Shown: piece after piece, positions 55,073-63,343 of the stretch
Layout: every line of letters begins with the position of its first letter
How positions within the stretch are numbered: the stretch's first letter is position 1
Assembly: GCF_900101025.1 (NCBI RefSeq)
Contig: NZ_FMUH01000004.1
Coordinates: 62,001 to 126,000, forward strand
Reading direction: 5' to 3'
Length of the DNA stretch: 64,000 bases
Origin: Klenkia marina
Lineage (GTDB): Bacteria > Actinomycetota > Actinomycetes > Mycobacteriales > Geodermatophilaceae
Notes under the pieces: model-generated
Seen by the model: the letters and a program-made list of their open reading frames with translations, nothing else
Database searches by the model: none
Told to the model about the DNA's origin: nothing
Made by a program: the position numbers and the translations under genes

Positions 55073-55333
55073 TCACGCGCCGGAGGAGGCCAGCTGGCTC
55101 TTCACCTGCTCGATGGTGGGGTTGGTCAGCGCGGTGCCGTCGGCGAAGATCAGCGTGGGCACGGTCTGGTTCCCGCCGTTGGCCTTCATGACCAGGTCGG
55201 CGGCGGCCTCGTCGGTCTCGATGTTGACCTCGGCCCACTCGATGCCCTCGCGCTGCATGAGCTTCTTCAGGCGCACGCAGTAGCCGCACCAGCTGGTGGT
55301 GTACATGGTCACGGGGGCGGTGGGGGCGCTCAT
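55073..55333 (-). CDS. mrx1: Mycoredoxin Mrx1
   Basis: 86-residue glutaredoxin-fold protein with active site C16-G-Y-C19 (TSWCGYCVRLKKLM), cis-Pro TVPTLIFADG and a glutaredoxin-type GTALTNP end. Mycoredoxin uses mycothiol to reduce mixed disulfides. Divergent from uvrD2, as Rv3198A is in M. tuberculosis. Confidence 0.93.
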   Translation of the reverse strand: MSAPTAPVTMYTTSWCGYCVRLKKLMQREGIEWAEVNIETDEAAADLVMKANGGNQTVPTLIFADGTALTNPTIEQVKSQLASSGA

Positions 55334-55468: not shown

Positions 55469-57484
55469 ATGACCGGGGGAGTGCAGGGCGCGGAGGCGGT
55501 GCTGGCCGGGCTCGACGAGCAGCAGCGGGCCGCGGCGGCCGCCGTCCGGGGCCCGGTGTGCATCCTCGCCGGTGCCGGCACGGGCAAGACCCGCACCATC
55601 ACCCACCGCATCGCCTACGGGGTGCACGCCGGGGTGTACGTGCCCGAGCAGGTCCTGGCCGTCACCTTCACCGCACGGGCCGCGGGCGAGCTGCGCGGGC
55701 GCCTGTCGGCGCTGGGTGTGGGGGGTGTGCAGGCCCGCACCTTCCATGCGGCGGCCATGCGGCAACTGCGGTACTTCGCCCCCCGCGTGCTCGGCGGCCC
55801 GATGCCCGAGCTGGTCGAGAACAAGCTGCGGGTGGTGGCCGGGGCGGCCACCCGGCACCGGTTGACCACCGACCGGGCCAGCCTGCGCGACCTCGCCGGC
55901 GAGATCGAGTGGGCCAAGACCACCCTGGCCACCCCCGACGAGTACCCGGCCCGGGCCCGGGCCGCCGGTCGCGAGGCACCGTTCGAGGCGGCTGCCGTCG
56001 CCGCGGTCTACGCCTCCTACGAGCAGGCCAAGCAGCGCGAGGGCGCGCTGGACTTCGAGGACCTTCTCCTGGTCACCGCCTACGCCCTCGAGGAGCACCG
56101 CGACGTCGCCCAGGAGGTGCGCGGGCAGTACCGGCACTTCGTGGTCGACGAGTACCAGGACGTCAACCCGCTCCAGCAGCGGCTGCTCGACGCCTGGCTG
56201 GGCGGCCGGGCCGAGCTGTGCGTCGTCGGCGACCCGCACCAGACGATCTACTCCTTCACCGGCGCCGACCCCGACTACCTGCTCGGCTTCGCCGACCGCT
56301 ACCCCGACGCCGAGGTGGTCAAGCTCGAGCGCGACTACCGCTCCACCCCCGAGGTGGTCGGGCTGGCCAACCGGCTCATCGGCATGGCCCCCCGGCGCAC
56401 CGGGTTGCCCGGGCTGCGGCTGCTGGGCCAGCGGGCCGCCGGTCCCGAGCCGCGGTTCGTCGAGCACCCCGACGAACCCACCGAGGCGGCCGCGGTGGCC
56501 GCCATGTGCCGTGCGCTGGTCGACTCCGGCCTGCCGGCGGCCGAGATCGCCGTGCTGTTCCGGATCAACGCCCAGTCCCAGGTCTACGAGTCCGCCCTCG
56601 CCGACCTGGGCGTGCCGTACGTGCTCAAGGGCGGCGAACGGTTCTTCGAGCGGCCCGAGGTGCGCGAGGCGGTGCTGCTGCTGCGCGGCGCGGCCGCCGG
56701 GCGCGACGACGGCGGTCCGCTGGTGCCGGCCGTGCGCGACGTCCTGGCCTCGGTCGGCTGGGTCGAGCACCGTCCGCCGCCCGGGGGTGCGGCCCGGGAC
56801 CGGTGGCAGTCGCTCTCGGCGCTGGTCGACCTCGCCGTCGACCTGGTCGCCGAGCAGCCCGACCTCACCCTGGCCGGCTTCGTGGCCCACCTGGCCGAGC
56901 GCGCCAACGCCCAGCACGCCCCCACCGTGCAGGGCGTCACCCTGGCCTCCATGCACGCGGCCAAGGGCCTCGAGTGGGACGCGGTGTTCGTGGTCGGCCT
57001 GGTCGACGGCGTCGTCCCCATCGCGCAGTCGCTGGCCCGTCCCGCCGCGGTCGAGGAGGAGCGGCGGCTGCTGTACGTCGCGGTCACCCGCGCCCGCGAG
57101 CAGCTCACCCTGTCGTGGTCGCTGTCCCGGCAACCCGGCGGCAAGCGGTCCCGCCCCCGCAGCCGCTTCCTCGACGGCCTGGCCCCCGACACCGCCGAGC
57201 AACGGGCCCGCGCTCGTCGGTCGCCGGCCCGGCGGGCGGAGGTGCAGCTCGACGGCGCGGCCGGCGAGCGGTTCGAGCGGCTCCGCGCCTGGCGGGCGGC
57301 CACCGCGTCGGCCGCGTCGGTGCCGGCCTACGTGGTGCTCAACGACGCCACCCTCCAGGCCATCGCCGAGTCCCGGCCGGCCTCGCTCACCGAGCTGTCG
57401 GCCCTCCCGGGCATCGGCGCCCGCAAGCTGGAGATGTACGGCGCCGACGTCCTGGCGGCCGTCGACGAGAACTCCTCCGTCTAA
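55469..57484 (+). CDS. uvrD2: DNA helicase UvrD2 with HRDC domain, tetracysteine module missing
   Basis: 671-residue superfamily 1 helicase. Walker A AGAGTGKTRT (Lys40), DEYQDVNPLQ (Asp near 227), GDPHQTIYSFTG, HAAKGLEWD, VTRAREQL; the C-terminal HRDC domain is YVVLNDATLQAIAESRP...LPGIGARKLEMYG. Mycobacterial UvrD2 has a tetracysteine motif between the motor and HRDC that is needed for unwinding in vitro. Here that segment (RARRSPARRAEVQLDGAAGE) has no cysteines. CAGACT 6 nt before the ATG suggests a near-leaderless start. The stop codon TAA overlaps the whiB7 promoter element. Confidence 0.93.
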   Translation: MTGGVQGAEAVLAGLDEQQRAAAAAVRGPVCILAGAGTGKTRTITHRIAYGVHAGVYVPEQVLAVTFTARAAGELRGRLSALGVGGVQARTFHAAAMRQLRYFAPRVLGGPMPELVENKLRVVAGAATRHRLTTDRASLRDLAGEIEWAKTTLATPDEYPARARAAGREAPFEAAAVAAVYASYEQAKQREGALDFEDLLLVTAYALEEHRDVAQEVRGQYRHFVVDEYQDVNPLQQRLLDAWLGGRAELCVVGDPHQTIYSFTGADPDYLLGFADRYPDAEVVKLERDYRSTPEVVGLANRLIGMAPRRTGLPGLRLLGQRAAGPEPRFVEHPDEPTEAAAVAAMCRALVDSGLPAAEIAVLFRINAQSQVYESALADLGVPYVLKGGERFFERPEVREAVLLLRGAAAGRDDGGPLVPAVRDVLASVGWVEHRPPPGGAARDRWQSLSALVDLAVDLVAEQPDLTLAGFVAHLAERANAQHAPTVQGVTLASMHAAKGLEWDAVFVVGLVDGVVPIAQSLARPAAVEEERRLLYVAVTRAREQLTLSWSLSRQPGGKRSRPRSRFLDGLAPDTAEQRARARRSPARRAEVQLDGAAGERFERLRAWRAATASAASVPAYVVLNDATLQAIAESRPASLTELSALPGIGARKLEMYGADVLAAVDENSSV

Positions 57485-57519
57485 TTGCGTTGACCGCCTC
57501 AGCAGGGGTCCCCTAGCCT
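57482..57519 (+). promoter_or_regulatory. whiB7 promoter with an AT-rich autoregulation element
   Basis: TAATT (57482-57486), 3-bp GCG, -35 TTGACC (57490-57495), 18-bp spacer, -10 TAGCCT (57514-57519). An AT-rich tract 3 bp upstream of the -35 is the arrangement recognised by WhiB7 with SigA in mycobacteria. The predicted transcript start near 57526 gives a leader of about 510 nt before whiB7. Confidence 0.65.
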
Positions 57520-57530
57520 CTGCTGCACGC

Positions 57531-57612
57531 GCTCCGGTGACGGAGCACACCAGCACGGCGCACGAGGACGAGCAGCACGTCCGCACCGCGGGACCGGCCC
57601 ACCGGCCGGTCC
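57531..57612 (+). ncRNA. Two leader hairpins upstream of the whiB7 upstream ORF
   Basis: Hairpin one: GCTCCG-GTGA-CGGAGC (57531-57546). Hairpin two: GGACCGGCC-CACC-GGCCGGTCC (57591-57612, 9 bp perfect). The second ends 9 nt before a strong AAGGAGG site. They probably structure the 5' leader RNA. Confidence 0.5.
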
Positions 57613-57637
57613 CCGAACCCCGGAAGGAGGGGTCACC

Positions 57638-57895
57638 TTGGGCAGCACCGCCATCTACGCGAAGGCCCCGTCCCGCGTCGGGGTCTTCGTCGCGTGCGGC
57701 CGAGCCGTCGAGGGCGCCTCGGTGGCGCACACCGCCGCTCCGTTCCGTGGCACCGGTCTGCCCGTCGGCGCCGGACTGCGGCTCCGCCCGGCCGGCGTCC
57801 CCATGACCGTCCGGCCCGTCGACGCCATCGGCGGCGACGTCCAGCTGAACAGCGACACCCCGGGTGACCTGCCCCCGAGAGACCCCCTGAGCTAG
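57638..57895 (+). CDS. 85-codon upstream ORF in the whiB7 leader
   Basis: Begins with TTG, 7 nt after AAGGAGG (57624-57630), and has the GC-rich third positions of a translated gene. The product (MGSTAIYAKAPSRVGVFVAC ... PRDPLS) has no recognised family, membrane segment or signal peptide. The stop lies 22 nt before a strong terminator hairpin, an arrangement suited to ribosome-controlled attenuation of whiB7. uORF-dependent attenuation of whiB7/wblC is described in other actinobacteria; whether this long ORF is that regulator or a separate small protein is not settled by the sequence. Confidence 0.6.
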   Translation: MGSTAIYAKAPSRVGVFVACGRAVEGASVAHTAAPFRGTGLPVGAGLRLRPAGVPMTVRPVDAIGGDVQLNSDTPGDLPPRDPLS

Positions 57896-57916
57896 CGCTC
57901 AGGTCGGTCCTCCTCG

Positions 57917-57954
57917 AGGCCGCGGAACCCGGACAGAACCGGGATCCGCGGCCT
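57917..57954 (+). terminator. Attenuator-type terminator before whiB7
   Basis: AGGCCGCGGA (57917-57926) pairs perfectly with TCCGCGGCCT (57945-57954); inside, CCCGG (57928-57932) pairs with CCGGG (57939-57943). TCTCC follows. It lies within the predicted whiB7 transcript, 83 nt before the whiB7 start. Confidence 0.7.
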
Positions 57955-58036
57955 TCTCCATGTGCCGTCGATCCCACCGACCACCCGTCGGCGGGCCCTC
58001 CGCCGTCGGTTGCACGACGAGGAGAGAGGACCGACC

Positions 58037-58330
58037 GTGCAGCACACGATCGAGCGACCGGTGTCCCTGCCGCGCGCCGAGCTCGAACGGACCCCGCGGA
58101 CGGCGCTGCCCTGTCGCACGCAGGACGCCGACCTGTGGTTCGCAGAGGCGCCGGCCCAGCTGGAGCAGGCCAAGGAGTTCTGCGGGGCCTGCCCGCTGCA
58201 GGCCTCCTGCCTGGCCGGCGCACTGGACCGCGGCGAGCCGTGGGGCGTCTGGGGCGGGCAGATCTTCGACCACGGGGTCGTGATCGCCCGCAAGCGTCCC
58301 CGGGGCCGCCCCCGCAAGGTCGCCGCATGA
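58037..58330 (+). CDS. whiB7: WhiB7 transcriptional activator
   Basis: 97 residues. Four iron-sulfur ligands, Cys26, Cys49, Cys52 and Cys58 (CGACPLQASC), the WhiB turn G-V-W-G-G at 70-74, and a C-terminal AT-hook R-G-R-P-R-K at 89-94 identify WhiB7 specifically. It binds SigA region 4 and activates intrinsic antibiotic-resistance genes with AT-rich elements before the -35. GAGAGAGGA precedes the GTG. It lies after uvrD2, as in M. tuberculosis (Rv3197A), under a regulated leader. Its stop overlaps the next gene by 4 nt. Confidence 0.96.
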   Translation: MQHTIERPVSLPRAELERTPRTALPCRTQDADLWFAEAPAQLEQAKEFCGACPLQASCLAGALDRGEPWGVWGGQIFDHGVVIARKRPRGRPRKVAA

Positions 58331-58551
58331 GCGACACCACCCACCCGAGAACCGAGCACGAGACCCCGAGAGGGGGAGTGATGGACCTCTACCGCAACGA
58401 GTTGACCCTGGCGCGCATCCGGCAGGCCGACCTGCTGGCCGACGCCGACGCGTCTGCCCGGGCCCGGCGGATCGTCGCCGCGCGGCGCTGGGCCCGACGG
58501 GCCGAGCGGGCCACGCGCCGGGCCGCCCGCGCCAGCGCCGCCGTCCGGTGA
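58327..58551 (+). CDS. Small basic protein coupled to whiB7
   Basis: 74 residues from the ATG that overlaps the whiB7 stop (ATGA); an internal ATG at 58381 behind GAGAGGGGG would give 56. The sequence is helical and very Arg/Ala rich (LYRNELTLARIRQADLLADA, then AARRWARRAERATRRAA). Similar small proteins follow WhiB genes in other actinobacteria in my recollection. It may bind nucleic acid or membrane; no function known. Confidence 0.65.
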   Translation: MSDTTHPRTEHETPRGGVMDLYRNELTLARIRQADLLADADASARARRIVAARRWARRAERATRRAARASAAVR

Positions 58552-61900: not shown

Positions 61901-63343
61901 TCAGCGCGGGGCGGACCCGGTGTCCCCGGAGCCGGTGTCCCCGGAGCCGGTGTCCCCGTCGGTGCCCGGGGCGTCGTCGGGGTCGCCGAGGTCCAGGCCG
62001 GCGGTGAGCCGGTCGAACTCGTCCTGCTCGGCTGCGGCGTCGGCGGCCGAGGGGCGGGACTGCCGGCCGACGAAGTCCAGGGGCTCGTCGAGGTCCTCGG
62101 CGGTGGGCAGCAGGTCGGGGTGCGACCACAGCTGGTCACGGGCCTCGCTGCCGTGCTGGGCGGCCATGGCCCCCCAGACCGTCGCCGCGTCGCGCAGCCG
62201 CCGGGGCCGCAGCTGGAGGCCGACCAGCGTGGCGAAGGTCTGCTCGGCGGGCCCGCCCGAGGCGCGCCGGCGGCGCATGGTCTCGGCCAGCGCGCCGTGG
62301 CCGGGCAGCCGCTGCCCGGCGGCCTCGGCGACCACGACGTCGACCCAGCCCTCGACCAGGGCCAGCAGGGTCTCCAGCCGACGCAGGGCGCGCTGCTGCT
62401 CCTCGGTCTCGGCGGGCTCGAGCACCCCGCTGCCCAGCAGCTGCTGCAGCTTCTCGGGGTCCTGGGGGTCGAAGCCGCCCTCCATGCCGCCCATCGCGTC
62501 CTCGAGCCCGCGCTGGATGGCGTCGGCGTCGACGTGGATGCCGCGCGCGTAGGCGTGGACGGCGTCGGCCAGCTGCTGCCGCAGCCACGGGACGTGGGCG
62601 AACAGGCGCTGGTGGGCGGCCTCGCGCAGGGCGAGGAACAGCCGCACCTCCTCCTCGGGCCGGTCCAGGCCCTCGCGGAAGGCGTCGACGTTCTGCGGCA
62701 CCAGTGCGGCGGTGCCGGCCGGGGCGAGCGGGAGACCCACGTCGGTGCTGGTGACGACCTCGTCGGCCAGCTTGCCGAGGGCCTGCCCGACCTGGGCGCC
62801 GAACATGACGCCGCCCATCTGGCCCATGACGCCCGACAGCGGGCCCGCCACGGCGGCGGCCTCGGCCGGCAGCGCGGAGGTCATCGCGGCCACCACCCGC
62901 TCGGCCAGCGGGTCGATGAGGGCGCCCCAGGCGGGCAGCGTCTGCTCCAGCCAGTCGACCCGCGACCAGGCAGCGGTGCGCTCGATGCCCGAGGGCAGCT
63001 CGGTGACCTGGTCCAGCCAGAGGTCGGCCAGCCGCAGGGCCTCGGTCACCTCGCTGCGCTCGGCGGCGGAGGTGGGCTGGTGACCGGCCGCGAGCTGGCT
63101 GATCGCGCCCTGGCGGGCGAGGTCCCAGTTCACCGGGCCGCCCGACCAGGTCATGAGCTTCTGCAGCTCGGCGAACAGCGGCATCTTGCCGAGCAGGTCC
63201 TCCGGCGATCCGCCCCCGGCGCCGCCGAACAACGCGCCGAAGCCGAACGGGTCGGCCGGGTTGCCGCCACCCCCGGGGCCGTTCTCGTCGCGGCGCTGCG
63301 GGTCGCGGTCGGAGGGGCCGAATCCGAAGGGGATGTCGCTCAT
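61901..63343 (-). CDS. DUF2342 zinc-metalloprotease-like protein (Rv3195-like)
   Basis: 480 residues of the DUF2342 family, often annotated zinc-dependent metalloprotease. The Gly/Asn/Asp-rich N-terminus precedes an alpha-helical core: VNWDLARQGAISQLAAG, GVMFGAQVGQALGKLADEV, FLALREAAHQRLFAHVPWL. The E-A-A-H-Q...H pattern stands where a metal site is expected, but a classical HExxH is not visible. The C-terminus is a GDTGS tandem repeat. The ATG at 63343 lies 7 nt after TACCGT (leaderless) and is preferred over a GTG three codons upstream at 63352. Confidence 0.82.
   Translation of the reverse strand: MSDIPFGFGPSDRDPQRRDENGPGGGGNPADPFGFGALFGGAGGGSPEDLLGKMPLFAELQKLMTWSGGPVNWDLARQGAISQLAAGHQPTSAAERSEVTEALRLADLWLDQVTELPSGIERTAAWSRVDWLEQTLPAWGALIDPLAERVVAAMTSALPAEAAAVAGPLSGVMGQMGGVMFGAQVGQALGKLADEVVTSTDVGLPLAPAGTAALVPQNVDAFREGLDRPEEEVRLFLALREAAHQRLFAHVPWLRQQLADAVHAYARGIHVDADAIQRGLEDAMGGMEGGFDPQDPEKLQQLLGSGVLEPAETEEQQRALRRLETLLALVEGWVDVVVAEAAGQRLPGHGALAETMRRRRASGGPAEQTFATLVGLQLRPRRLRDAATVWGAMAAQHGSEARDQLWSHPDLLPTAEDLDEPLDFVGRQSRPSAADAAAEQDEFDRLTAGLDLGDPDDAPGTDGDTGSGDTGSGDTGSAPR
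61919..61958 (-). repeat. 15-bp tandem repeat, C-terminus of the DUF2342 protein
   Basis: GGTGTCCCCGGAGCC at 61919 and 61934 and a partial third copy from 61949; encodes repeated G-D-T-G-S. Confidence 0.85.

Follow-up and report, generated by a model that had tools for sequence, protein, structure and literature searches.

The stretch of DNA analysed here (hereafter the window: 64,000 nucleotides (nt), positions 62,001 to 126,000 of contig NZ_FMUH01000004.1 of Klenkia marina) carries a gene for the regulator WhiB7, whose long leader holds a putative translation-sensing transcription attenuator. The whiB7 gene (58037-58330, open reading frame list, GTG start, 97 amino acids; all features are on the plus strand unless stated otherwise) matches the Pfam family Whib (57.6 bits, cut-off 23.6), is preceded by a Shine-Dalgarno (SD) region at 58020-58029 and encodes at its C-terminus the AT-hook RGRPRK (58301-58318; Pfam AT_hook 14.6 bits, under the cut-off of 17.4), so that a WhiB-family gene with an AT-hook lies 3' of the leader, as in the whiB7/wblC class. 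It is located downstream of a uvrD2-like gene (UvrD helicase and HRDC domains by Pfam) that ends at 57484, and the region between the two, with a leader of approximately 510 nt, comprises an AT-rich element (TAATT, 57482-57486, overlapping the uvrD2 stop codon), a promoter (57490-57519: TTGACC at 57490-57495, an 18-nt spacer and TAGCCT at 57514-57519), two predicted 5' hairpins (GCTCCGGTGACGGAGC, 57531-57546; GGGACCGGCC/GGCCGGTCCC, 57590-57613), a Shine-Dalgarno sequence (AAGGAGG, 57624-57630), an upstream open reading frame (uORF; 57638-57895, 85 codons, TTG start, TAG stop), a predicted hairpin whose apical part contains the uORF stop codon (57877-57912) and, 21 nt past that stop codon, a predicted intrinsic terminator (57917-57954; arms 57917-57932 and 57939-57954). 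The promoter, 5' hairpins, uORF, terminator and AT-hook-bearing whiB7 had been described in an earlier annotation of the window made from the letters alone (hereafter the original prediction), and the sequence confirms this anatomy.

For comparison we used the family Geodermatophilaceae, where WhiB-type matches were present in all 112 genomes (a few of them weak) and 100 whiB7 loci were taken from the 111 genomes other than this one (11 being left out; the leader of L090 was excluded as too short, at a contig end). Outgroups were drawn from 24 further families of the class and comprised 59 leaders with a uORF, 55 of them with a confirmed terminator; four loci (L161, L163, L171 and L186) stayed outside the 55-sequence tests as no terminator lay near the chosen uORF (L171 being a second whiB7 copy without the terminator element), and L159 yielded no uORF. 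A further named set of 35 uORFs is mostly from Nocardia, close strains included (L272 and L308 left out), and one of its genomes (L294) looks identical to L160 of the 55. Among the named loci those of Klenkia species come closest, taking the first 5 of 80 places; Modestobacter, Blastococcus and Geodermatophilus follow lower down.

The promoter arrangement (AT-rich element, TTGACC, and TANNNT 17-18 nt further on) recurs in 84 of 101 family sequences, the window included; among those missed by the scan, TTGCG was seen by eye to replace TTGAC in 11 further loci, and the misses also include L088 (foreign upstream sequence) and L090 (cut off by the contig end), which are likewise the exceptions to the presence of the uvrD2 end 5' of whiB7 (98/100 relatives' loci). 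In mycobacteria an AT-rich motif adjoining the -35 box is needed for WhiB7-dependent whiB7 transcription (excerpts of PMC3905903), and by analogy the TAATT element, placed just 5' of the -35 box of a SigA-type promoter, is a probable site for the WhiB7 AT-hook; transcription would start at about 57526. Each of two strict promoter patterns occurs once in the whole genome, at whiB7, and the delineation of a WhiB7 regulon through the promoter pattern was abandoned, since the genome-wide search returned whiB7 alone. The leader folds with a z of -5.7 against shuffles, and GC hairpins like the second 5' hairpin precede the Shine-Dalgarno sequence in some relatives (by eye).

A uORF led by a Shine-Dalgarno sequence was present in all 100 usable family leaders (63-134 codons, median 102), and outgroup uORFs span 39-172 codons (n = 59; 43-172 among the 55 terminator-confirmed ones), so that the uORF of the window, which the original prediction had considered long, is of ordinary size. 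Its assignment as a coding frame is based on the GC content by codon position (0.68/0.65/0.91) and on frame conservation: gap runs divisible by three account for 885 of 2049 inside the uORF versus 172 of 1652 outside it (246 close pairs, 86 genomes). Over 367 pairs, the ratio of nonsynonymous to synonymous substitution rates (dN/dS) amounts to 1.20 at the start of the uORF (first 25 codons), 1.05 in its middle and 1.53 at its end (last 16 codons). When the alignment was made on nucleotides, the body gave 1.27 (the two wrong frames 0.96 and 0.87), versus 0.20 for whiB7 in those same pairs; GC-rich third positions skew these ratios, a bias that the whiB7 control shares. At the codon level the reading frame is therefore kept and the peptide is not. 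The last 16 codons have a dS of 0.073 (367 pairs), and by these comparisons the end of the uORF is constrained as RNA.

A function of the peptide in trans, in addition to the role of its translation in cis, had been entertained for this uORF, and the frame retained in every usable leader, together with the recurrence of short blocks (GTGLP, RLR), could be read in its favour. Such a function would sit poorly with a body dN/dS of 1.0-1.3 (against 0.20 for whiB7), with the twofold range of lengths, with the lack of any match for the peptide in Pfam or NCBIfam, and with a search by the window's peptide that reached only 15 of the 112 family genomes. A peptide that is presumably translated and yet drifts fits a role in cis, and we regard a function in trans as very improbable. 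The GTGLP block itself (57749-57763) recurs in the class as (Q)GTGLP or (Q)GTGLS (L172, L191, L195-L197, L215 and several named Nocardia loci): GT.[LMV][SP] is found in 67 of 100 family bodies trimmed of their last 16 codons (3.3 expected) and in 15 of 55 outgroup ones (0.7 expected), compared to 3 of 98 ninety-residue pieces from 18 gene-like open reading frames of the window (1.3 expected; hereafter the window-protein control). Its codons look constrained at the nucleotide level (GGT is often fixed, and a small hairpin is possible).

The same type of terminator is found 9-31 nt past the uORF stop in 55 of the 59 outgroup leaders. In the 100 family sequences its arm columns are mostly invariant or nearly so. 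The terminator pairs covary, 8 of 15 changing on both sides (1/500 shuffles has as many). A covariance model placed the element in 178 of 295 genomes of the class (its strict filters missed some genomes where an anchored search found it) and once in this genome, and the 40 matches that were compared with whiB7 positions all share the strand of whiB7 and precede it by 66-266 nt. Rfam gave no match in the window at the gathering threshold, which none of the 7 weaker matches in the leader (E up to 10) attained.

Competing with this terminator would be an antiterminator, in which the terminator 5' arm pairs with a strand within the last uORF codons (CCGGGTGACCTGCC, 57860-57873). When leaders were folded up to the terminator 5' arm, with the uORF tail left free, that arm paired upstream with a mean probability per base of 0.65 (above 0.3 in 100/100 family sequences), its main partner spanning positions -36 to -21 relative to the uORF stop. 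The probability of the antiterminator exceeded the mean of shuffled uORF tails in 100/100 family sequences (0.67 vs 0.36) and in 55/55 outgroup ones (0.71 vs 0.43); these values come from an anchored hairpin search, which replaced an automatic one that took wrong hairpins in many outgroups (56 found; 0.47 vs 0.27 shuffled, 48 above). Furthermore, in 48 of 56 sequences the own strands paired better than the mean obtained on swapping with other families and, with one sequence per family (25), the own strands reached -19.25 kcal/mol versus -17.17 (standard deviation 0.43) for permuted ones (0/2000 permutations as good), which points to co-evolution of the antiterminator strands across 25 families. 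Within the family, the first antiterminator pair stays T-A or C-G in 93 of 96 (4 sequences misfit, and the change is mostly a single one at clade level); these pairs were tabulated directly, given a one-nucleotide offset between the two sequence types in alignment A1. A uORF ending in W-S-P-P-V recurs among outgroups (e.g. L191, L192, L198, L215), apparently encoded by CCTGGAG, the antiterminator strand whose partner at the base of the terminator is CTCCAGG; being written by that strand, this conserved peptide end seems to be an RNA signature.

The CU-rich strand that separates the uORF stop from the terminator (57896-57920) might additionally sequester the whiB7 Shine-Dalgarno sequence and thereby control translation. 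The duplexes predicted in 55 leaders are strong (own -24.5 vs swapped -23.1 kcal/mol) and better than the mean swap in 41 of them; on the other hand, any purine-rich Shine-Dalgarno sequence would pair with a CU-rich strand, the comparison is among close relatives, and the strand is already engaged by the stop-codon hairpin and the antiterminator, for which reasons we consider this additional layer of control unlikely.

Several observations speak against attenuation, or temper the numbers in its favour. Further pair types in the terminator are not above shuffles (99/500), the window's terminator tail is weakly U-rich, the terminator 5' arm still pairs upstream with a mean of 0.32 when the uORF tail is hidden (in imitation of a ribosome at the stop codon), the shuffles of the tail keep base composition and not dinucleotides, and the species and sequence pairs compared are non-independent. 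Moreover, once the 3' arm is present the terminator prevails at equilibrium (mean P 0.90), and the choice must therefore fall during RNA synthesis, through co-transcriptional kinetics. With these points weighed, we consider it highly probable that the locus attenuates transcription in response to translation, in the manner of whiB7/wblC, on the grounds of anatomy, frame conservation, peptide non-conservation and antiterminator co-evolution; the transcription start, kinetics and drug response are inferred. The autoregulatory promoter and attenuator proposed in the original prediction are thus well supported. RNA polymerase would start at about 57526, trailed by a ribosome moving through the 85 codons of the uORF; on reaching its end this ribosome would cover 57860-57873, the terminator at 57917-57954 would fold and whiB7 would stay off. 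If ribosomes were instead stalled or scarce upstream, 57860-57873 would pair with the terminator 5' arm before the 3' arm exists, polymerase would read through, and the WhiB7 produced would boost its own AT-rich promoter.

Attenuators with a uORF have reportedly been described for whiB7/wblC of Mycobacterium and Streptomyces, by Burian and Thompson in 2018 and by Lee, Lee and Roe in 2022. Control of whiB7/wblC by uORF, terminator and antiterminator is given as established in the excerpts of PMC10727445, PMC11550727 and PMC13393426, and the uORF and terminator are described in those of PMC4128351. The Klenkia locus shares with these systems the WhiB7-type gene, the long leader, the AT-rich SigA-type promoter, the uORF led by a Shine-Dalgarno sequence, the intrinsic terminator and an antiterminator that draws on uORF sequence (the latter by prediction and co-evolution), and differs from the Mycobacterium and Streptomyces attenuators in species and in peptide. 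Since attenuation of whiB7/wblC by a uORF is established, the locus is known in kind, and it is the pattern of motifs within the uORF body that may be new.

Residues 48-50 of the 85-codon uORF are Arg-Leu-Arg (57779-57787), an instance of the +X+ motif (Arg/Lys-X-Arg/Lys) of macrolide-dependent arrest peptides of the ErmDL type; in the excerpts of PMC8298421, +X+ and X+P are macrolide arrest contexts, and in the Arg-Leu-Arg arrest the Leu codon occupies the P site. Tested against shuffled peptides after trimming of the RNA-constrained last 16 codons, +X+ was present in 94 of 100 family uORFs versus 33.5 expected and in 37 of 55 outgroup uORFs versus 18.6 expected (0/1000 shuffles reached either value), and in 16.6 of 24 versus 8.5 expected with one outgroup uORF per family. 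The named uORFs (mostly Nocardia and non-independent) had it in 32 of 35 versus 15.4 expected; the window-protein control showed 55 of 98 versus 54.3 expected. Arg-Leu-Arg as such was found in 59 of 100 family uORFs versus 2.9 expected. The trimmed bodies are also enriched in X+P (as [RK]P: 70/100 family vs 43.4 expected, 0/1000 shuffles; 25/55 outgroup vs 16.4 expected, 7/1000) and strongly depleted in Pro-Pro (14/100 family vs 45.9 expected; 1/55 outgroup vs 11.1), with the window-protein control at 43/98 versus 46.5 for [RK]P and 35/98 versus 38.7 for Pro-Pro. Pro-Pro stalls ribosomes without any drug. Its avoidance in uORF bodies looks as though drug-independent pauses were selected against; Pro-Pro is present in the RNA-constrained ending of Klenkia-type uORFs. 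Polyproline stalling as a timing device within the body was rejected on account of this depletion.

The +X+ motif could be a by-product of constraint on the RNA, such as a stem or other pairing dependent on CGN NNN CGN, given that the last 16 uORF codons are clearly constrained in this manner and that in some families an RVR falls there. We consider such an origin quite unlikely, as the test is positive after trimming, Arg-Leu-Arg is encoded in eleven synonymous ways, at variable distances from the stop. In addition, among close pairs the motif Arg is kept in 0.69 of comparisons (4003) versus 0.47 for other Arg (8894), and conserved Arg residues carry synonymous changes at 0.47 in the motif versus 0.43 elsewhere; with the motif Arg better kept and synonymous change about equal, selection seems to act on the amino acid. 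The second charged residue lies at least 30 codons 5' of the stop in the family (down to 17 in outgroups), and at a distance of 30 codons or more a ribosome stalled on the motif would not cover the antiterminator strand. We infer from these patterns that the conserved +X+ (Arg-Leu-Arg in Klenkia) is a macrolide/ketolide stall site, where macrolide-bound ribosomes would stop at 57782-57787, the antiterminator would form and whiB7 would be made; other drugs, and starvation, would slow or block translation of the uORF at any point.

It is also conceivable that the uORF acts as a non-specific speedometer, in which slowing anywhere within approximately 100 codons leads to readthrough and +X+ is incidental. 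This would agree with an unconserved peptide body, with the uORFs that have no +X+, and with reports that whiB7/wblC responds both to drugs of several classes and to amino-acid starvation (excerpts of PMC12121999 and PMC13393426). It would leave unexplained why the enrichment is centred on spacing 2 in three data sets and is absent from ordinary proteins, why +X+ is retained with varied codons, and why X+P is enriched and Pro-Pro depleted in the same bodies, and we therefore hold it to be possible, if doubtful. As for the other spacings of charged residues, those from 3 to 8 showed no enrichment in trimmed outgroup uORFs. A dedicated stall site has its own difficulties: spacing +7 is mildly enriched in the family (4/1000), spacing +1 in outgroups (23/1000) and spacing +6 in untrimmed outgroups (z 2.0); +X+ is missing from 6 of 100 uORFs in the family and, after trimming, from 18 of 55 in the outgroups; the RVR of L180-L182 falls within the antiterminator strand, the wrong place for stalling; and the erythromycin motifs XDK and XPW showed no significant enrichment in trimmed uORFs. 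On balance we favour, with a probability of roughly 0.6, a class-wide reading in which the peptide of whiB7/wblC uORFs drifts freely and is nevertheless shaped so that ribosomes stall on it only in the presence of drug (+X+ and Arg/Lys-Pro kept as amino acids, Pro-Pro avoided, the antiterminator end constrained as RNA), the uORF being in effect a speed sensor with a dedicated macrolide trap.

Among other regulatory uORFs, ErmDL of ermD likewise has an Arg-Leu-Arg arrest motif and precedes a resistance function (excerpts of PMC8298421); ErmDL, with its motif at residues 6-8, promotes ermD expression via mRNA refolding, whereas in the 85-codon Klenkia uORF the motif occupies residues 48-50 and the result would be transcription attenuation of a regulator. 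In the toiL uORF of Escherichia coli topAI several drug classes are sensed, with stalling at different places (excerpts of PMC12121999); gene and organism differ from those considered here, and homology is not expected. The same paper (eLife 2025) states, in its excerpts, that antibiotic stalling within the whiB7 uORF was as yet untested, and, the primary papers of 2018 and 2022 aside, the excerpted literature contained no statement on a +X+ motif in whiB7 uORFs, so that the enrichment of macrolide-arrest motifs in their bodies is apparently new. WhiB7 drives intrinsic resistance in actinobacteria, clinically important ones among them, and the conserved +X+ motif pinpoints, in many species, the codon to examine for stalling. 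Furthermore, the class-wide RNA element, unmatched by Rfam in the window, could be annotated as a family. Attenuators of the ilvB type sense amino-acid supply via codon runs. They resemble the Klenkia leader in that translation of a uORF chooses between terminator and antiterminator (excerpts of PMC13236596).

Some minor observations concern individual loci. L109 and L130 (family genera g7 and g8) have divergent uORFs of 65 and 68 codons and a AAATAGATTGCG-type promoter, closer to those of other families of the class, with the terminator type unchanged. Upstream of L088 (genome G009) neither uvrD2 nor the TTGACC box was found, the uORF-bearing leader being present; the upstream sequence resembles what we take to be an IS630-type transposase. 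Genome G332 has two whiB7-like genes (C1:312683 and C1:446377), and its sole element precedes the copy at C1:446377. In the window, a small Arg-rich open reading frame (56 amino acids, 58381-58551) without a match in Pfam or NCBIfam lies directly 3' of whiB7, and on the minus strand the terminal part of a long open reading frame (approximately 55073-55330) contains MYTTSWCGYC and presumably represents a mycoredoxin/glutaredoxin.

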